Origin: a bacterium
GTDB taxonomy: Bacteria > Cyanobacteriota > Vampirovibrionia > Gastranaerophilales > Gastranaerophilaceae
DNA: 38,562 bases
Direction: 5' to 3'
Assembly (NCBI GenBank): GCA_017403285.1
Contig: JAFQOI010000019.1
Coordinates: 1-38,562 of the forward strand
In this document: positions 11,771-23,223 of the stretch, in pieces
How the letters are laid out: each line of letters begins with the position of its first letter
Position numbering within the stretch: the stretch's first letter is position 1
Notes under the pieces: model-generated
What the model was told of the DNA's origin: nothing
The model's input: the letters and a program-made list of their open reading frames with translations, nothing else
Database searches by the model: none
Translations under genes and position numbers: made by a program

Positions 11771-14700
11771 ATGGAAGATAATAAGAAGAAAAAGGGATTA
11801 TATTTCTTTATTACAAAACCTCGTTTTGCGATGGTTATATCAATCTTTATTACTATTGTAGGTTTAGTATCAATGTTTGGATTGCAACTTGAAAAATATC
11901 CAAATATTACACCACCACAGGTAACAGTATCTGCTTCATACCCTGGTGCAAGTGCTTCCGTTATTGAATCATCAGTAGCATCACTTGTTGAATCACAGGT
12001 TAATGGTGTTGAAAATATGCTATATATGTCATCAACTTGTTATGATGAAATGTATCAATTAAATATTTTCTTCAAGGTTGGCACGAATAAAGATATTAAC
12101 CTTGTAAACGTACAAAATAGATTGCAGCAAGTTGAACCTTTGTTGCCTGAAGATGTTAAACGTTTAGGGGTAACTGCTACAAATAAGGTGGCAGGTGCAG
12201 GTGCTTGTATATTAAATCTTGTTTCTAATAATGGTTCTTGGAGCCAACTTGATTTAACAAACTATGCAACTATTTATATTAAAGACGAAATTAAACGTTT
12301 AGATGGGGTTGGAGAGGTTAACGTATTTGGTGCTGGTGATTACAGTATGAGAATATGGCTTAACCCAAGCAAAATGGCCAATTTAAATGTTTCAGTGTCT
12401 GAAATTAGGGCTGCAATTGCGGGGCAAAACGTTCAAGTTTCATCAGGTGCATTAGGTGCATTGCCTAGTAAAACAAATCAAACATTAAGAATGACGTTGA
12501 TGACAAAAGGTCGTTTGATAGAACCAGAAGAATTTGAGGAAATTATTGTTCGTTCTAATACAGATGGTTCTCAAATTAGAATTAAAGACATTGCTAGAGT
12601 TGAACTTGGTGCATATTCTTACGATAAAATTGGTTTGATTGGTGGTAAACCAGCATCAGTTATCCAAGTTGTTCCTCTTCCTGGTGCAAATACAATTGAA
12701 GTAGTTAATTTAGTAAATAAGAAAATTGAACAAATTAACAAAACACTTCCTGATTCATTAGAAGTAAAAATGATGCATGATGATTCTAAATTTATTCGTG
12801 AATCAATGAAAGAAGTTTTCTTCACAATTATGTTGACTTCACTTATCGTAATTGTGGTAATTTTTACATTCTTAGGTGATTGGCGTTCAACATTAATTCC
12901 GTTTGTAACCATTCCAGTATCATTAGTTGGTGTATTTGCGGCATTGCCGATGTTTGGTATGTCGATTAACCTGCTGACGTTGTTTGCGATGGTACTTGCG
13001 GTAACGGTAGTAGTTGATGATGCTATTGTAGTAATTGAAAACGTAAAGCGTCACTTAGAAGAGGGTAAATCGCCAATAGAGGCAACACAGCTTACAATGC
13101 AAGAAGTTGGTGGAGCATTAGTTGCTATGGCAATGGTTCTTATGGCCGTATTTGTTCCTGTTTCATTTGTTGCAGGATTATCCGGCTTGATGTATAGACA
13201 GTTTGCTGTTTGTATTGCAGTATCAATTGCATTATCAGCAGTTTGCGCATTGTCTTTATCTCCTGCTATGTGTACAATGGTGCTTCGTGCAGAAGATCCT
13301 AATAGAAAACCAAGTAATTTCTTTACTGCTTTTATAAATAGAGTATTCGTTGCTTTTGATAAAAGATTTGATGAAATTACAAAGTGGTATTTAGAAGTTG
13401 TTAAAAAATTCGTATTCAATAAAAAATTAACTATTACTTTATATACAATTTTCCTAGTTTTAATGGGATTTTTGTTCAAAATAATTCCAACAGGATTTAT
13501 TCCAGATGAAGACCAAGCAGTATTGATGTCTCAAGTTGTGTTACCTCCTGGTAGTGCTTTAAACAAAACTCAAGAAGTATTGTTAAAAATGACAGAGGAA
13601 GCAAAACAAATTGAAGGTATTGAAACTGAAAGAATTATTACATTCGCTGGTATAGGACCAACAAACCAAGCATTTTGTATTACTCCATTAAAAGAGTGGC
13701 ACGAAAGACAAGTAAATCCTATTCAGTGGGTGATTAGAAAAATACAAGGTAAACCAACGGATTTATCTCATAACGGTATATTAAAAGAATTAAGAACAAG
13801 GTTTGCAAAGATTAACGAAGCACAAATTGCTTGTTTTTCTCCTCCTGCTATTTCTGGTATGAGTATGTTAGGTGGTTTTGAGTTCCAAATGTTATCAAAA
13901 GGAGAACACTCGCTTCAAGATATAGAAGGATTTGCGCAAAAGTTAATGGTTGCAGCAAATCAAGACCCAAGTTTGAATAACGTTTATACAACATTCCAAG
14001 CAAACGTTCCACAATATAGATTAAATATTGATTATGCTAAGGTTCTAGCGCAAAATGTTGACATACAAGAATTGTATGCAACAATGGCTTCAACTTTAGG
14101 CTCATATTATGTAAATGACTTCAATAAATTAGGTCGTGTATTCAGAGTTCAACTTCAAGCAGAAGATGATTTTAGAAATAAAGCAACTGATATTGAAAAG
14201 ATTTACGTTAAAAACATGAGAGGACAAATGGTTCCTCTAAGAACAATGGTTAGCTTAGAACAAACCGTTGGTGCGGCGTCTATTACGAGATTTAACCAAT
14301 ATAGAAGTGTACAATTTTCAGGTCAACCTTCTGCGGGAAAATCATCAGGTGAAGCAATGGTTGCTATGGAAAATGTTTCTCAAAAAGTTCTTCCTCAAGA
14401 TGTAGGTTATGACTGGTCTGGTACATCAATGCAAGAAAGAGAATCATCAGGACAAACTGGTATAGTAGTTGCTTTGGCATTGACTTTCGTATACTTGTTC
14501 TTGGTTGCATTGTATGAAAGTTGGTCAATTCCAGTAGCGGTATTATTAATTGCTCCAATTGCTGCGTTAGGTGCTTTGATTTTCCAAATGATGATGGGAC
14601 TATCTTTCGACTTATATGCTCAAATTGGTATGATTACTTTAATTGGGGTTGCGGCAAAACAATCTATCTTGATTGTAGAGTTTGCTAGAGATTTACATGA

Positions 14701-14983
14701 ACAACAAGGTTACAGTATTGAAGATGCAGCGATAGAAGCAGCAAGATTGAGATTTAGAGCGATTATGATGACAGCGTTAGCATTTGTATTTGGTGTGTTG
14801 CCAATGGTATTTGCAACTGGTGCTGGTGCACAATCAAGAATTGCTGTTGGTTCAACAGTATTTGGTGGTATGGTTGCTGCTGCTACAATTGGTACAATCT
14901 TAACACCAGTATTCTACGTTGTAGTTCAGTCTATGGTAGAAAATGCGGCAAAGAAAAAAGCGTTAAAACAATCGAATAATTAA
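11771..14983 (+). CDS. RND multidrug efflux pump, HAE-1 family (AcrB-like)
   Basis: A 1070-residue inner-membrane antiporter, close to the usual 1030-1050 with a slightly longer middle loop. It has the twelve-helix RND plan with two large periplasmic loops. The proton-relay aspartates in helix 4 are present ([21 protein letters not shown]416 and D417), as is the helix 10 lysine ([15 protein letters not shown]963). The opening [20 protein letters not shown] and the ALNKTQEVL-type porter domain fit the hydrophobe/amphiphile branch. It exports drugs, bile salts or other amphiphiles through the downstream channel, driven by proton entry; bile is a plausible substrate for a gut bacterium but this is inference. 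The gene has more C-ending codons than its neighbours, suggesting good expression. Confidence 0.96.
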
Positions 14984-15007
14984 AACTTATAGAGTAGAGT
15001 GGATAAA

Positions 15008-16702
15008 ATGAACAAAAAATTATTTATATTTATGTTTTTAGTAATGTCTGGAGCGGCTTTTGCTCAAGATGTTGTGCAAGAAGATGTGGTTGTTAATGAG
15101 GCAAGACCAACTCTTGAAGAAGTTGCTGGTCCGACTGTTGTACAACCAACTTTTTCTCAAAGAGTAAAGGATATTTTTTCTTGGAAACCAGAAAAAAATA
15201 GCGCTAATTTAGGGCAGGAAGCAGATGCTGTTGAAGTTGATAATGATGTTCTTTTGAAAGAACAAAAGAAAGCGGAAAAAGAACTTAAAAAACAACAAAA
15301 ACAAGCAGAAAAAGCCGCTAAAAGAGCTGAAAAAAAGGCACAAAAAGAATTAGAAAAAAATATAGAAAATGTTGAAAATGCAGTTGTGTTACAAGAAGAA
15401 ACTCCAGCGGTAAATCAAGGTGATGATAATACTGTATTGACTGATACTGCATATCACGCAAGCATCAATACTAATAGAATTATGAAAGTTGATGAATGTG
15501 TGAAAATTGCTTTGGAAAAACATCCGTTAATACATTTGGCTATGAGTAATTCAGAAATATACAAAAGTAGAATTGCGCAAGCGTGGGCAAATTATTTTCC
15601 TACATTCTCTGCTGGTTTGAGTTATTCAAGAAACGATATGCAAGTTGCAAACTTTGCATTTCCAACTCAAAAATATGATATGTTCTACACTCCTACTGTT
15701 TCTGCAAATATGCTTTTATTCGATTTTGGTAAGACAAAAGCGCAAGCAGATTTGGCAAAAAATACTTATGAATCTTCGCAATTCCAATTGCAAAATAGTA
15801 TCAATACTGTAATTTTTACAGTTAAACAATCATATTATAATTTGTTATTTGCTCAACAACAGGTAAAAGTATACGAAGATACAGTTGCTGATTACACTTT
15901 GCATTTAGAACAAGCAAAAGCATATTATGATATTGGAACAAAGGCGAAAATAGATGTTTTGACAGCCGAGCATAATCTCGGTAAAGCAAAATTGGGTCTA
16001 ATTCAGGCAAAAAATACATTAAAGATTGCGTATGTTCAATTAAGTAATGCGATGGGGACTCCTGATGTAAGTGATTATGATGTTACTGATGATTTAACTA
16101 CAAAAGCTTATGATATTCAGGTTGAAGATGCTGTTAATACTGCATTTGAAACTTCTCCAGAGCTACAGGCTGCAAAGAAGAAAGCAGATGCTTCTGGAAT
16201 ATTAGTTAGGGCTTCAAAAAGAGCATTTTTGCCAGATGTTAGAGGATTTGGTGGATATACTCGAGGTGGTAAAAAAATTGATACTGACTATGGTTATCAA
16301 TTTGGTGCCGAACTTGCATATAAAAATGTCAACTTGTTGCTATTGAAAAAACAAGTTGATGAAGCAAGAGCAACTTATAAAAAAGACTTAGCAGATTTTG
16401 AAAATACAAAACAAAATATTTATTTTGAAGTCAAACAAGCATATATTAATTTGACTAATGCTCAAGAAAGTATAGTAGTAGCAAAATTATCTATGGATCA
16501 GGCAAAAGAACAATATGATCAGGCATCAGGAAGATATAAAGTTGGCTTAGGTGATGCAATCGAACTTAAAGATGCAGAAACCACATATAGAAATTCACAA
16601 CTAGACTATTACAATACTTTGTTGAATTATCATGTGTCGGCTGCAAATTTGGAAAAATTGATGGGAGTTCCACTTCAATCGACTGATATAGACATACTTT
16701 AA
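15008..16702 (+). CDS. TolC-like outer-membrane efflux channel with a long charged linker
   Basis: A TolC/OprM-family protein of 564 residues from ATG 15008; an in-frame GTG at 14999 would add three. The signal peptide (KKLFIFMFLVMSGAAFA, cut before QD) is followed by about 130 residues that are not part of the TolC fold, including a lysine/glutamate/alanine-rich helix (about 80-115, KKAEKELKKQQKQAEKAAKR and on). The channel domain starts near residue 150 (MKVDECVKIALEKHPLIHLA) and contains both OEP repeats, ending normally. TolC relatives are about 430-490 residues, so the extra length is this linker. It is the last gene of the efflux operon. The presence of an outer-membrane channel shows a diderm envelope. 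The linker may span or bind peptidoglycan; that is a guess. Confidence 0.9.
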   Translation: MNKKLFIFMFLVMSGAAFAQDVVQEDVVVNEARPTLEEVAGPTVVQPTFSQRVKDIFSWKPEKNSANLGQEADAVEVDNDVLLKEQKKAEKELKKQQKQAEKAAKRAEKKAQKELEKNIENVENAVVLQEETPAVNQGDDNTVLTDTAYHASINTNRIMKVDECVKIALEKHPLIHLAMSNSEIYKSRIAQAWANYFPTFSAGLSYSRNDMQVANFAFPTQKYDMFYTPTVSANMLLFDFGKTKAQADLAKNTYESSQFQLQNSINTVIFTVKQSYYNLLFAQQQVKVYEDTVADYTLHLEQAKAYYDIGTKAKIDVLTAEHNLGKAKLGLIQAKNTLKIAYVQLSNAMGTPDVSDYDVTDDLTTKAYDIQVEDAVNTAFETSPELQAAKKKADASGILVRASKRAFLPDVRGFGGYTRGGKKIDTDYGYQFGAELAYKNVNLLLLKKQVDEARATYKKDLADFENTKQNIYFEVKQAYINLTNAQESIVVAKLSMDQAKEQYDQASGRYKVGLGDAIELKDAETTYRNSQLDYYNTLLNYHVSAANLEKLMGVPLQSTDIDIL

Positions 16703-16787: not shown

Positions 16788-19700
16788 ATGTATATAAAAG
16801 AACTTGAAGTTGACAACTTTAAATCTTTTGCGAATGATGTTACAATCCCGTTTTTAAAAGGGTTTACGACTATAGCGGGCCCAAACGGTTCGGGGAAAAG
16901 TAATATCATTGACAGTATTTTGTTTGCACTTGGGCTTGCGAGTGCAAGAAATTTGCGTACAGAACAGTTGTCAGATTTTATTTCTACCCATACAAAGAAG
17001 AACGAAGCTTATGTAAAAGTTGTTTTTGAACCTGACGATAAAACAGAAGAAGCGATTACTGTTGCGAGAAAAATTAGAAAATCTTCACAAGGATTTAACA
17101 GTGTTTATTATTTAAATGGTCAAGTTTCTACTTTGACTGAAATACATTCTCAACTTGAAAAATATAGAATTACTCCTAATAGCTATAATGTAATTATGCA
17201 AAGTGACGTTATGAGTATTGTTAATTGCTCAAATGTTGAAAGAAGAAAAATTATTGATGAAATTGCTGGAATTGCGGATTTTAATAGACGTATTGAAAAA
17301 GCACAAGATGAGTTATTAACTGTTGAAGAAAGAGTTGAAAACGCTAATCTTATTTTGACTGAAATTGAATCTAATATTGAAAGATTGGCTCAAGAAAAAG
17401 AAACTGCTTTAAAATATCAAAAATTAAAAACTGAAAAATTTCAATTAGAAAGTCAAATAACAACTGTTAAATATTTTGATATTAAACGTAATTTGGAACT
17501 TGCTCACCAAAATATTTTGGAATTTAACAAGAAGAAAAAAGATGAAGAACTTAATCTTAAAAAACTTGAAGAAAAGCTTGTTGAAATAAAAAAACGTTAT
17601 GGCGAGATTTCTGAACTTGTTAAAAATAATGGCGAAGCAGAACAAATTGAAACAAAGAAACAACTTGAAGAATTAAAAGGGCAAATTCAAAGAAAAGAAC
17701 TTGCTATTAGCGCTGTTGAAAAAACAATTCACGATAACTTAAAAACAATTGAAAATTCTAAGAATGGTATTGAAAACCATAAAGAAAAAATTGAAAAAAT
17801 AACTTTAAAAATTGAAGAAAAGAAAGTTGAAATTTCCCAAATTGAAGCAAATATTAAGATCCAAGAAAAAGAATTAACAAAGATTTTAGAAGAAGTTTCT
17901 GGATTAAATCAAAATGCTGATAAACAATTAGAAGAAAGAAACAACTTAAAGAAAGAATTAGAAAAATTAAAAGAAGAAGAATGGGATATTAAATCTGGTT
18001 CTATTCCATTGGAAACAGAGTTGGCTTCTTTAAAAAGAGATATTGAAAATGCGAAAAAGACTCTTAATGAGTTGATTTCATTTAAAGCTAATTTTAAAGA
18101 CAATCAAGATAAATTAAATCTTCAGGTGGAAGAATTAACAAAGGAACTTGGGGATTGTAAACTTGCTCAAGAAAATATTATGTATAATCTTGATAAAAAT
18201 AAAAATGAAATATCAGATATTATGCATGATATTCAAATGGCGCAAAGGAAGATTGTTACTATTGAGGCGCAAAAAAGTGCCTATGAAGAAATGAATTTAG
18301 GCAAAGCAATTGATTCTATCATAAGAGCAAAAATCAAAGGTGTTCACGCTCCATTATTGCAATTGGGAAGTGTTGAAAAAGAATATTCAACCGCTCTTGA
18401 AGTTGCAATGGGTGCAAGAATGAAAAATATTGTAGTCGATGATGAAGATGTAGCAAGAGTTTGTATTGATTATTTAAAATCTGCTAGAGCGGGTAGTGCT
18501 ACATTCTTACCTTTGAACAAAATAAAGAAAGCGCCTTCAAGTTTAAAGGTTCCAAGAGAAAAAGGAATTGTTGATTTTGCTATCAACTTAGTTGATTTTG
18601 ATGATAAGTATGTAGATGCGTTTTATTATGCGTTGGGTGATACTTTGATTGTTGAAGATTATGATTGTGCTAAAAGGTTAATCGGTAAATATCGTTTGGT
18701 AACTTTAGATGGTAGTTTATTTGAAAAATCTGGTGCTATAACGGGTGGTGATAGACAAAGTTCAGGGCTTAAATTTAGCCAAAATCAAGATGAAGAACTT
18801 TCTAAATTTAAAGCACGTTTTGCAGATTTACAAAAACAATATGCTGCTCTTGAAAAAACTCGTGAAGAACTTCAAACAAAACAAGAAAAAATTCGTTCTA
18901 ATTATTCAAATACAATGACAGCATTAAATGGTGCAAAAATAGAGTTGAATAACTTGAATAATAATGCTAAAAATAATGAACAACGTATTGAAGAATGCAA
19001 TAAAATAATCAAAGAAGCAACGCCAAAAGTGGCAAATATTGAGAAAAAACTTGAAAAATACGAAGAAAAACTTATTTCTTTAAATGATAAAATGCTTGTG
19101 CTTCAAGATAAGATTGCTGAAATTGAAAGTAAAATGACAGAGGGTGAACTCAAAAAATTAAAAGAGATGACTGCTGCCATTGAAAATCAAATCAAAGAAT
19201 ATCAAAATAAAATTTTAAAATGTAATAATGAAATTAGTGAAGCAAATAGAGACATTGATTTTAATAAAGAATTAATTAAGGCCAAAGAAGAGCAAATCCA
19301 AAGATTAATAAAAGATAATGAAATTGCTGCTAATGATAAAGTTAAGTATGCTGAAGAAATTAAAGAAATTGAAGTAAAAGCTGTTGAACTTGAAGAAAAA
19401 ATTAAGGTGTTAGGCGAAAAACTTATTGAACTTCAAAAACAACGTGATTTAGTTCAAGAAGAACTTTTAAAGGCTGAAACAGAAAAGAATAAAATTTCAA
19501 ATGAAATAGAAAAAATCGCAGAACAGGTAGAGTCGTTCAAAACAAGAAGAGCAGAACTTGAACCTCAACTTGCCGAAATAAGGGCTGAACTTAAAGATAA
19601 TCAAATTGATATAGAATCTTTAGTTCCTACAGAAATTTCAACGGAAGAGATTAACAATAAAATCCATCGTTTACAAAAGAGAATGGAAGAGATGGAACCT

Positions 19701-20279
19701 GTTAATATGCTTGCGATTGAAGCGTATGATGAGGTAAAAGCTCGTCAAGAAGAAAAGAAAGAACAAATTGCTACTTTAACAAATGAACGTAGACAAATTC
19801 TTGAGAAGATGTCTGGTTATGAGCAAATTAAAAAAGAAACATTTATGAAAACGTACAATAACATAAATGAACATTTTAAAGATATTTTTGCTCAATTGTC
19901 AGAAGGTGAAGGAAGTTTAGAGCTTGAAAATCCTGAAAATCCTTTTGATGGTGGAATGACGATAAAAGCGCAAATAAGAGATAAAACGAAACAAAAGCTA
20001 GGGGCAATGTCTGGTGGAGAGAAATCGCTCACTGCTCTTGCATTGGTTTTTGCTATCCAAAAATATCTTCCAGCACCATTCTACGCATTAGATGAGGTTG
20101 ATGCCAGCCTTGATGGTATTAACTTGGCGCGTTTATCAGATATAATAAAAGAACAAGCAAAAAATACGCAATTTATAGTAGTTACTCACAAGCAAAATAT
20201 GATAAAATCTGCTGATAGAACGATAGGTGTAACTCAAAAAGAACATGGAAGAACCCTTGTAACGGGGATTAGAAATTAG
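16788..20279 (+). CDS. smc: Chromosome segregation protein SMC
   Basis: A 1163-residue condensin ATPase of normal length. The Walker A motif GPNGSGKSN is at 31-39. Long heptad coiled coils (about 170-500 and 660-1000) flank the hinge (about 510-640; GVHAPLLQLGSVEKEYSTAL, ITGGD). The ABC signature SGGEKSLTALALVFA starts at 1075 and Walker B with its catalytic glutamate is FYALDEVDASLDG (D1102, E1103). The protein entraps DNA and, with ScpA and ScpB, extrudes loops to compact and separate the chromosome. The ATG at 16788 fits the universal MYIKELEVDNFKSF opening. It is followed nine bases later by scpA and then scpB, so all three condensin subunits are encoded together. Confidence 0.98.
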   Translation: MYIKELEVDNFKSFANDVTIPFLKGFTTIAGPNGSGKSNIIDSILFALGLASARNLRTEQLSDFISTHTKKNEAYVKVVFEPDDKTEEAITVARKIRKSSQGFNSVYYLNGQVSTLTEIHSQLEKYRITPNSYNVIMQSDVMSIVNCSNVERRKIIDEIAGIADFNRRIEKAQDELLTVEERVENANLILTEIESNIERLAQEKETALKYQKLKTEKFQLESQITTVKYFDIKRNLELAHQNILEFNKKKKDEELNLKKLEEKLVEIKKRYGEISELVKNNGEAEQIETKKQLEELKGQIQRKELAISAVEKTIHDNLKTIENSKNGIENHKEKIEKITLKIEEKKVEISQIEANIKIQEKELTKILEEVSGLNQNADKQLEERNNLKKELEKLKEEEWDIKSGSIPLETELASLKRDIENAKKTLNELISFKANFKDNQDKLNLQVEELTKELGDCKLAQENIMYNLDKNKNEISDIMHDIQMAQRKIVTIEAQKSAYEEMNLGKAIDSIIRAKIKGVHAPLLQLGSVEKEYSTALEVAMGARMKNIVVDDEDVARVCIDYLKSARAGSATFLPLNKIKKAPSSLKVPREKGIVDFAINLVDFDDKYVDAFYYALGDTLIVEDYDCAKRLIGKYRLVTLDGSLFEKSGAITGGDRQSSGLKFSQNQDEELSKFKARFADLQKQYAALEKTREELQTKQEKIRSNYSNTMTALNGAKIELNNLNNNAKNNEQRIEECNKIIKEATPKVANIEKKLEKYEEKLISLNDKMLVLQDKIAEIESKMTEGELKKLKEMTAAIENQIKEYQNKILKCNNEISEANRDIDFNKELIKAKEEQIQRLIKDNEIAANDKVKYAEEIKEIEVKAVELEEKIKVLGEKLIELQKQRDLVQEELLKAETEKNKISNEIEKIAEQVESFKTRRAELEPQLAEIRAELKDNQIDIESLVPTEISTEEINNKIHRLQKRMEEMEPVNMLAIEAYDEVKARQEEKKEQIATLTNERRQILEKMSGYEQIKKETFMKTYNNINEHFKDIFAQLSEGEGSLELENPENPFDGGMTIKAQIRDKTKQKLGAMSGGEKSLTALALVFAIQKYLPAPFYALDEVDASLDGINLARLSDIIKEQAKNTQFIVVTHKQNMIKSADRTIGVTQKEHGRTLVTGIRN

Positions 20280-20288
20280 GGTAAGTTA

Positions 20289-21152
20289 ATGTTAAATCCA
20301 AAGGATGCGGAAAATTTTTATATACACAGCCATGAAGAAGCATTGGGACATAATTTCAGTGTAGATTCTATTTTAGATACACCATCAGAAGAACTTGATG
20401 GCATTGAAGTATTGGTTCAAATGGCAAAACAAGGTAAAATTGACCCTTGGAATATTGATATTGCAGATATTGCAGACAAGTATATGCTTCATATTTCAGA
20501 AAGTAAATCTAATAATTTAAGATTGAGTGGAAGAGCATTATTCTTTTTGGCAGTATTGTTGAAGTTGAAATCAAACGTTTTGGTTGGTATTGATCCTATT
20601 CAATTTGAGCCAATCGCTCCTATTGACCCTGAATATGATGATAGTGATGATTCTAGATTTTCTGATGATATGTATTATCAAGATTTGCCAGATAATGTTA
20701 TTCCTATTGAAGATATTATTCAAAGAAGAACAAGCGTAAAATTAAATAGGAATAGAATTGTAACTTTAAAAGATTTAATTAGGCAGTTAGAATTTTATGA
20801 AGAATTAGATAAAAAACAGGCTTTAAAAAATTCTTTAGAGCGTGCAAAAAGACGTGTTCAAAGTTATAAAAATATGTCTAATGAAGATATCATTAATTTA
20901 GCTCAGGAAGAATATATAGAAACAAGTGTTAAAGTCCTTCAAGAAAATCTTACAAAGATTTTTGAAAAGGAAGAGAAGGTTGAACTAAACACTTTAACAT
21001 TGTTGGGGCTTGATAAAATAACTGCATATATTGCTTTGTTATTTTTATCTGTTAAAAGTGAATTTGATATACAACAAGAAGAATTTTATTCAGATTTGTA
21101 TGTGGTAAAAGGGCAAATGCCTGTTGAGCAATTAGGGGAGCAAACAGCGTAG
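20289..21152 (+). CDS. scpA: Segregation and condensation protein A (kleisin)
   Basis: A 287-residue kleisin that closes the Smc ring. The core block is typical (DGIEVLVQMAKQGKIDPWNI, then LRLSGRALFFLAVLLKLKS), and the carboxy-terminal winged helix that binds the Smc head is present (LGLDKITAYIALLFLSVKSE, then YVVKGQ). The middle is long and acidic (DPEYDDSDDSRFSDDMYYQD), which separates the amino-terminal helices from the winged helix and makes the protein a little longer than the 245-265 usual. The ATG comes nine bases after the smc stop, with TAGGGTAAG between; scpB follows after seven bases. Confidence 0.95.
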   Translation: MLNPKDAENFYIHSHEEALGHNFSVDSILDTPSEELDGIEVLVQMAKQGKIDPWNIDIADIADKYMLHISESKSNNLRLSGRALFFLAVLLKLKSNVLVGIDPIQFEPIAPIDPEYDDSDDSRFSDDMYYQDLPDNVIPIEDIIQRRTSVKLNRNRIVTLKDLIRQLEFYEELDKKQALKNSLERAKRRVQSYKNMSNEDIINLAQEEYIETSVKVLQENLTKIFEKEEKVELNTLTLLGLDKITAYIALLFLSVKSEFDIQQEEFYSDLYVVKGQMPVEQLGEQTA

Positions 21153-21159
21153 GGGTAAT

Positions 21160-21675
21160 ATGGATTTAAAAGCAAGAATAGAAGCTGTATTATTCGTAAC
21201 TGGTAAGGCCGTCAATATAAAAGATATTGCGCAAATTCTTGAAGCGGATGAACAAGAAGTTGAAGAGGCAATGCTTGCTTTGATTTTTGATTATTCTTCA
21301 AGAGAAGGGGCTCTCGAGATTGATGATGAAAATGGCTATATTATTCAAGTTAAAAATGAATATATGGATATAGTTGAGAAGCTTTGTCCTGTTGATATTT
21401 CAAATGCTGTTTTAAAAACACTTACAGTTATTGCCTTAAAAGAACCGATAAGACAAGCAGAACTAAAAGAATTGCGTGGTTCAACCGCTTATGATCACGT
21501 TCATGAGCTCATTGAAAAAGGTTTGATAAGTAGAAAAAGAGATAAAAATGGTCGTTCATTTAATTTAAAAACGACCCCTAAATTCGCCGAATACTTTAAA
21601 ATGAAAGGGAATTCGGAGATATTATCTAAGATAGAAACAACAAGACTGTCTGAGTTATTGGAATTAAATAAATAA
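21160..21675 (+). CDS. scpB: Segregation and condensation protein B
   Basis: A 171-residue protein made of two winged-helix domains that pairs with ScpA and modulates Smc ATPase cycling. The opening LKARIEAVLFVTGKAVNIKD and the second domain (LKTLTVIALKEPIRQAELKE, RGSTAYDHVHELIEKGLISR) match the family; the usual motif IAYKQPITR is here IALKEPIRQ. It is at the short end of the family (about 170-200), lacking a disordered tail. The ATG at 21160 follows AGGGGT. It sits seven bases after scpA and 15 before the TPR/matrixin-like gene, so all four genes probably form one transcript. Confidence 0.93.
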   Translation: MDLKARIEAVLFVTGKAVNIKDIAQILEADEQEVEEAMLALIFDYSSREGALEIDDENGYIIQVKNEYMDIVEKLCPVDISNAVLKTLTVIALKEPIRQAELKELRGSTAYDHVHELIEKGLISRKRDKNGRSFNLKTTPKFAEYFKMKGNSEILSKIETTRLSELLELNK

Positions 21676-21690
21676 CAAAGGGATATTTTC

Positions 21691-23223
21691 ATGGATGAGA
21701 ATAGTGAAAGTAAGCGAGATAAAGACCTTGCTTTGCAAAAGGAAAGAAGAGCGCGCAAATTAAAACGTCAAAAAATGCTTGATGAGCAAAGAAAGCGTGA
21801 AGAAGAAAAAGCAAAGCAGATTAGAAGAACAATAGTAACATGTTCTTTTTGGGGCACGTTAATTCTACTTGGGGCTGGTTGTTGGTTTGCTATTAATAAT
21901 GGGATAGCTTCTGATTTTTTATCTCATCAGGGACAAAAGTATCTTGAAGTAAAAGAATACGACAAGGCAATAAGAATGCTTAAAATAGCAGAAAGCATGA
22001 ATCCTGTAGATGAAAACATTGTATATTTGCAAGTAATGACTCTTTCTAGAATGCCTATTACATACGAAAATATGAAAAAATTATATGAAATTTCACAATA
22101 TGAAGATTTTGATGAAGCAAGTGAGTATGCTTTTCGGGTTCTTAGATATATAAGACAACAAGTTGATGCAATGGTTGGGGCAAATTATGTTGATTATGTT
22201 TTGCATGATGATATAGTTTATAGATGGAATAATACTCAGCCGATAAAATATACAGTACAAGTTGGTAATAGTTTGCCATCTTCTTATATGACTGAAATAA
22301 AAAGAGCATTTACTGCTTGGTCTAGTTTGAGTAATGGGGCTATTATTTTTAATGAAGTTAATAATGTTGCGGAAGCAGATATTGTTGTTTCAATGGCTAA
22401 TACGTTGCCGACAGTAGATCCAAATGATACGCTTCGTAGCGCAGTAACTATTCCTGTTATTAATGATGATATTTTAAACAGAGTTGATATAATTATAAAA
22501 CCAATTGATAGTTCACAGTTAGAACAAGGTTCTGGTGCTTTTGGTTCTGTAATGAAAACTCAAATAGGACATGCTTTAGGAATTGCTGGTTATAGTTCTA
22601 ATGAAGCAGATGTGATGCATTTTTCTGGTGATTATATTTCAAATGTTCTTCCAAATAAAAATCTTACAGCAAGAGATGCAAATACTTTGACTCTTTTATA
22701 CAAAATGGTGCCAGATGTTATAAATGAACCATTGGCTCCTGAAGAGTACGATGATTTATTTTTCCACGCTGCAATTACGTCTGTCCCTGGAGATGGCATA
22801 GATAATGATGTGCGTGAATTGATGAACAATTTAAGTAATGATGTTCAAGATATTCCTAAATGGGTTGATTTGGCAACTAAATATGCATCAAAACAACACT
22901 ATAAGCACGCAAATGCTATATTGATAAATGTACTTCCTAATGTACAAGATAATCCTCAAAATAATTTTGTTATTTTGTATAATATAGCAGTTAATTATTA
23001 TAAACAAAAAGACTATTCAAATGCATTAAGATATATATATGCAGCAAGACGTATAGATGCTACTGATATTGATGCTATTGTTTTACAAACATTTGTTGAA
23101 CTAAGAACTGAACATAAAGATGTTGCAATGCAAAGATTAATCAGTATCAATAAAAAATATCCTGAACGAGAAGATGTTGCAAAAAAACTTGATTATTTGA
23201 ATAGGAAAAATAAAGGGAAATAA
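21691..23223 (+). CDS. Membrane TPR protein with a degenerate matrixin-like (M10) domain
   Basis: A 510-residue protein with a very basic cytoplasmic tail (1-45, coiled, many Lys/Arg/Glu), one membrane helix (47-68), TPR-like helices (about 75-140), a central domain (about 165-345) and carboxy-terminal TPRs (about 385-505). The central domain reads like a matrixin: a YTVQVGNSL strand, an AFTAWSSLSNGAIIF helix-strand, then TQIGHALGIAGYS (290-302), DVMHF and LTARDANTLTLLY. Active matrixins have HExxHxxG...H at the zinc site; here the first His and catalytic Glu are T290 and Q291 and the last His is Y301 (or G300), leaving only H294. It is therefore probably not a peptidase. It follows scpB by 15 bases; the basic tail could face the nucleoid. 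Function unknown; the domain reading is inference. Confidence 0.75.
   Translation: MDENSESKRDKDLALQKERRARKLKRQKMLDEQRKREEEKAKQIRRTIVTCSFWGTLILLGAGCWFAINNGIASDFLSHQGQKYLEVKEYDKAIRMLKIAESMNPVDENIVYLQVMTLSRMPITYENMKKLYEISQYEDFDEASEYAFRVLRYIRQQVDAMVGANYVDYVLHDDIVYRWNNTQPIKYTVQVGNSLPSSYMTEIKRAFTAWSSLSNGAIIFNEVNNVAEADIVVSMANTLPTVDPNDTLRSAVTIPVINDDILNRVDIIIKPIDSSQLEQGSGAFGSVMKTQIGHALGIAGYSSNEADVMHFSGDYISNVLPNKNLTARDANTLTLLYKMVPDVINEPLAPEEYDDLFFHAAITSVPGDGIDNDVRELMNNLSNDVQDIPKWVDLATKYASKQHYKHANAILINVLPNVQDNPQNNFVILYNIAVNYYKQKDYSNALRYIYAARRIDATDIDAIVLQTFVELRTEHKDVAMQRLISINKKYPEREDVAKKLDYLNRKNKGK

Follow-up and report, generated by a model that had tools for sequence, protein, structure and literature searches.

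The closest described proteins to the one studied here are the bacterial matrixins (M10A), of which karilysin (PDB 2xs4) shares with it the fold (residues 168–339), the Met-turn, the closing helix and PF00413. Compared with karilysin, the present protein is without zinc ligands and the general base, and it has a membrane helix, TPRs on both sides of the domain and a place behind scpB; in the active-looking orthologues of its gene, the motif is longer by one residue, placed ahead of the third His (HExxHxxGxxGH). Pseudo-peptidases are already known among the metzincins, e.g., the ADAM pseudopeptidases, which likewise have substituted zinc and base residues, a retained Met-turn, a membrane anchor and active close relatives (PMC11266112). 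In contrast to these, the present protein is bacterial, belongs to the matrixin branch, has TPRs instead of disintegrin domains and is encoded in a condensin operon. The CLCA zincins likewise show repeated, independent loss of the active site within one family, with E to Q as a common replacement (PMC3650047); the present family differs from them in family, domain set and genomic setting. With other smc-scpA-scpB operons the locus shares its first three genes, and the difference here is a fourth gene for a predicted extracytoplasmic matrixin-TPR protein. A search of open-access literature turned up no account of the gene, its position in smc operons or matrixins in Gastranaerophilales.

The window, i.e., the whole stretch of DNA analyzed, was 38,562 bp long and came from a metagenome-assembled genome of Candidatus Gastranaerophilales, a non-photosynthetic sister lineage of cyanobacteria. 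All four genes of the cassette lay on the + strand: smc (16788–20279, 1163 aa; PF02463, 3.9e-46; SMC hinge, 3.9e-31), scpA (20289–21152, 287 aa; PF02616, 3e-14), scpB (21160–21675, 171 aa; PF04079, 1.4e-38) and the fourth gene (21691–23223). The last was an uninterrupted ORF of 510 aa, and Pfam and the structural model pointed to a membrane-anchored TPR-matrixin-TPR protein, a putative pseudo-peptidase in the window species. The distance from the scpB stop to its ATG was 15 bases, and no terminator-like site was seen in this interval. The Pfam neighbors and the spacing agreed with the first-pass annotation, which had placed the gene in the smc-scpA-scpB operon 15 bases past scpB. On the 5' side of smc, the region 11771–16702 held a probable RND-type efflux gene (named from size and context) and a TolC-like gene (OEP, PF02321); in other genomes, mostly other genes occupied this flank.

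The protein began with a basic tail (residues 1–47; 21691–21831) predicted to be cytoplasmic from hydropathy and charge. A hydropathy scan gave residues 48–66 (21832–21888) as the best hydrophobic segment, also a helix in the model, and the preceding 20 residues carried a charge of +8/−5. Membrane topology was read from hydropathy and flank charge only; a single N-terminal hydrophobic helix with a positive flank on the cytoplasmic side corresponds to a single-pass, N-in protein. The positive-inside charge therefore places the TPRs and the matrixin domain outside the cytoplasm, and the window protein is predicted to span the inner membrane once, with the bulk of it extracytoplasmic. The helix was followed by N-terminal TPR-like helices (residues 71–162, 21901–22176; model helices 72–162), a matrixin-like domain (residues 165–345, 22183–22725) and C-terminal TPRs (residues 370–506, 22798–23208), in which TPR families of Pfam, among them PF00515, matched residues 428–456.

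The AlphaFold2 model, built from 14 sequences, had a mean pLDDT of 83.8. Its top VIA-align match was the karilysin catalytic domain 2xs4 (Z 15.9, rmsd 3.0), with 154 residues aligned at 21% identity over model residues 168–339. Karilysin and the MMPs together gave Z values of 14–16 over about 154 aligned residues, as expected for a matrixin/metzincin fold, and the C-terminal part matched TPR proteins and formed TPR superhelices. PF00413 (Peptidase_M10) covered residues 178–337 with 24.4 bits, marginally above the cut-off of 24; the orthologues scored up to 67 bits, and a profile built from them found MMP-12 (macrophage metalloelastase) by sequence at 1.7e-8. The matrixin assignment thus holds by both sequence and fold. 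The matrixin fold, single membrane helix and TPRs named in the first-pass annotation were all recovered by Pfam, hydropathy and the match of the model to karilysin, including by the structure prediction and M10 profile search that it had proposed. NCBIfam had no specific family for the window protein, and a first scan of genome contigs with this single protein matched no relative.

The zinc site was altered. In the alignment, orthologues carried H, E, H, H and Met at positions 290, 291, 294, 301 and 309; the window protein had T290, Q291, H294, Y301 and the Met-turn D307-V-M309. The changes H290T, E291Q and H301Y removed the general base and two of the three ligands. The orthologue motif was HEIGHALGxxGHSxxxxD(I/V)MY, and that of the window was TQIGHALGIAGYS....DVMHF. 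The altered segment TQIGHALGIAGYS (residues 290–302, 22558–22596; HEIGHALGxxGHS in orthologues) thus departs from the zinc consensus HExxHxxGxxH. The Met-turn DVM (residues 307–309, 22609–22617) was retained: D307 and M309 were invariant in the orthologues, M309 throughout the genus alignment. The non-catalytic motif residues GHALG, Met-turn and RD..T...Y were also kept. The sister species G014 (56% identity, independent assembly) had SQIGHALGIAGYS....DVMHS, with H290, E291 and H301 replaced and H294 and the Met-turn kept, as in the window. Sequencing error was ruled out, since the independent assembly of G014 showed the same kind of changes and two further species, G009 and G022, shared theirs.

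The HE..H......H motif was intact in 31 of the 36 species of the genus that have the gene. Each of the 32 aligned sequences from the family's other genera had an intact HExxHxxGxxGH, and the zinc site was also intact in relatives at the level of the order. Three species (G009, G022 and G016) had HQ for HE and kept all three His. On a species tree built on SMC, ScpA, ScpB, MiaB-like and MutS, loss of the glutamate fell on three separate lineages (window and G014; G009 and G022; G016), always from E to Q, and loss of catalytic residues was seen only in these lineages, within the genus of the window. E to Q is the common replacement in substituted HExxH motifs and independent losses are known from CLCA proteins (PMC3650047), so the direction of change is unremarkable in itself. 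Across 383 genomes of the order, the pattern QIGHALG occurred five times: four of the matches were known members of the genus, and the fifth (G273) lay in no open matrixin frame. The window protein apparently derives from active homologues, whose activity is read from their motif, and has since lost catalytic residues. The first-pass annotation had called the domain a probably dead matrixin, with T290, Q291 and Y301 in place of the first His, the Glu and the last His. Its numbering was correct by translation and orthologue alignment, and the description fits the window protein; it does not fit the family as a whole, in which nearly all orthologues keep HExxHxxGxxGH.

An apparent motif loss in whole genera (g31, g32, g39 and g25, "no GHxLG") was a pattern artefact: alignment showed HExxH and the third His intact, and the variants were HEIFHALG, HEAAHALG, HEIAHALG and HEIGHAMG. 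In g31 (L153, L173–L178) and g32 (L158, L196–L197), the motif read HEIFHALG, HETAHALG or HEAAHALG, in which another residue takes the place of the normally constant Gly preceding the second His, with the ligands unchanged.

Compared with the metzincin consensus, intact members had an additional residue in the stretch from the Gly to the third His. This longer spacing was found in all orthologues (e.g., L053, L141–L159) and in the cyanobacterial relatives L114 and L118, and the canonical HExxHxxGxxH in the small paralogues and in archaeal matches; HExxHxxGxxGH may mark a Vampirovibrionia/Cyanobacteria subfamily. The small paralogue is a second matrixin of about 260 aa with canonical HE.GH..GLGHS, present in most genomes of the genus, that of the window included, and usually near a PMT-like glycosyltransferase gene (L127, 1887–2663, G000:C37; L128–L131, L135, L137, L139).

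Retention of H294 and the Met-turn in both the window and G014 is what would be expected if H294 and other residues still bound a metal and acted on a different substrate. Some metal site, residual or altered, may persist around H294; that the protein is a metal enzyme with a changed site is very improbable, since the general base and two of the three ligands are gone and no obvious replacement ligand set was seen at the site in either member of the pair.

Pairwise estimates (NG86) of dN/dS in the matrixin domain were 0.34 for the window and G014 and 0.13 for G009/G022, the HQ pair; seven pairs of active-looking orthologues gave 0.27–0.38. These values are rough because whole-gene dS is high; for the window and G014 it was near saturation, with pS at 0.67. 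Branch lengths relative to housekeeping genes, with the species topology fixed, were 0.99 (window), 1.70 (G014) and 1.69 (their stem) for the domain, and 2.06, 2.06 and 2.47, respectively, for the C-terminal TPRs. The domain ratios being lower, the altered domain is not relaxed relative to its own C-terminal TPRs; constraint is moderate, because the family evolves fast. By the pairwise estimate, made at high dS, the altered domain of the window and G014 appears to be still under purifying selection.

These values bear on whether the protein is a decaying remnant, whose protease role was lost in the window lineage and which persists through its TPRs or by inertia. In the domain, the stem of the window and G014 was about 1.7 times as long as expected from housekeeping genes, and an orthologue was missing in G008, G033, G061 and G062 of the genus, as decay would predict. 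However, the frame is open at full length in both species, the domain has a dN/dS equal to that of active pairs and evolves more slowly than its own C-terminal TPRs, and GHALG, the Met-turn and RD..T...Y are kept; we regard decay as unlikely. Orthologues had been proposed as a check for recent decay at residues 290, 291, 294 and 301: these proved mostly intact in orthologues, but the reading as recent decay did not hold, since the altered site recurs in G014 and the domain remains under constraint.

Of 41 species of the genus, 35 (34 relatives and the window) had the gene on the same strand as scpB and 9–17 bases beyond its end. Among the rest, G008 and G033 had scpB without the matrixin/TPR gene, G061 and G062 had small paralogues only, the G063 contig ended before scpB, and in G019 neither scpB nor the gene was found. 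The linkage had seemed limited to the genus in an initial sample that lacked the family's other genera, but the family search overturned this: the smc-scpA-scpB-matrixin/TPR cassette was present in 19 of 31 sampled genera. In the 18 further genera (g47, g41, g33, g28, g31, g18, g21, g20, g52, g50, g45, g22, g24, g25, g26, g27, g29 and g23), the gene adjoined or overlapped scpB. It was not at scpB in g30, g32, g35, g36, g37, g38, g39, g40, g42, g44, g48 and g51, each sampled by one to three genomes, and in g32, g39 and g51 an orthologue lay elsewhere. Conservation of the smc-scpAB linkage, raised as a check by the first-pass annotation, thus extends far beyond the genus, with these 12 sampled genera as exceptions. 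To our knowledge, it is rare for an accessory gene to be locked to smc-scpAB across many genera.

Outside the family, the gene was absent from the scpB loci examined in families f2, f3, f4, f6, f7 and f8, and no scpB match was found in f5. Relatives in other families of the order sat at unrelated places away from smc, and when their neighbors were clustered, the only conserved association was a short tandem arrangement in f6. Tandem pairs of relatives were seen at L032–L034 (f6) and at L044 and L049 (f7). The window protein descends from a zinc-peptidase-like family whose members occupy the fourth position of the cassette in most of the genera sampled from the family of the window. The ScpB tree was compatible with one gain at the family base and several losses, although ScpB alone resolves deep branches poorly; a single origin of the cassette followed by several losses is probable.

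Absence from the scpB loci examined in other families and repeated loss within the family are consistent with a linkage that is only historical, i.e., one landing behind scpB at the family base, kept by inertia or a shared expression level. Against this, both cassette flanks vary between genera, yet the four-gene order and orientation are constant and the junction with scpB is kept, often with overlapping frames. A purely historical linkage is a serious possibility that we hold tentatively; it concerns the linkage alone and is compatible with a pseudo-peptidase.

The same cassette, kept in 19 genera with changing flanks, together with the basic tail of the window species, could be taken for a condensin membrane tether, in which the tail binds DNA or SMC-ScpAB and ties segregation to the envelope, a tie that the first-pass annotation had suggested. 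But the tail was the least conserved part of the protein (residues 1–70, 40% identical between the window and G014); in many genera only a few residues preceded the helix, and the sister clade had a tail of about 120 aa. Most members of the family resemble active proteases located outside the membrane, and 12 sampled genera have scpB without the adjoining gene. SMC-ScpAB is kept in the family genomes without the gene at the operon, so the gene is not needed for SMC function there. Given how short the tail is in many genera and how little of its sequence is kept, we do not favor a direct tether and consider it distinctly doubtful. The suggested segregation-envelope tie found no support so far, in view of the lineage-specific tail, the several SMC-ScpAB genera without the gene there and the position of other families' orthologues away from smc.

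The explanation that we consider probable is a maintained pseudo-peptidase that evolved from an active membrane protease and now serves as an extracytoplasmic binding protein, co-expressed with SMC-ScpAB. With the base and two ligands lost, the window protein would no longer cut; the fold, the active-site helix and the Met-turn remain, and would suit a non-catalytic binding or scaffold role in the envelope. The retained groove and the TPRs may hold a peptide or partner that the active relatives would process. Most members would be membrane-anchored envelope proteases, with TPRs that may select substrates. The spacing suggests that the protein is made together with SMC-ScpAB, and its amount would then follow growth and chromosome replication; for such a pseudo-peptidase, direct contact with SMC would not be required.

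A bolder reading, which we think improbable, is that the condensin of this family works with a fourth partner of its own, a matrixin-TPR protease of the envelope that is co-expressed with SMC-ScpAB. This protease would couple chromosome processing to an envelope step, and in some species it would have become a non-cutting receptor by repeated E to Q change and ligand loss. An extracytoplasmic protease locked to smc-scpAB would offer a testable link between chromosome organization and the envelope. In this genus, a bacterial metzincin appears to have lost catalytic residues several times while active-looking sisters survived, and intact, E-to-Q and ligand-less domains form a natural series within one genus.
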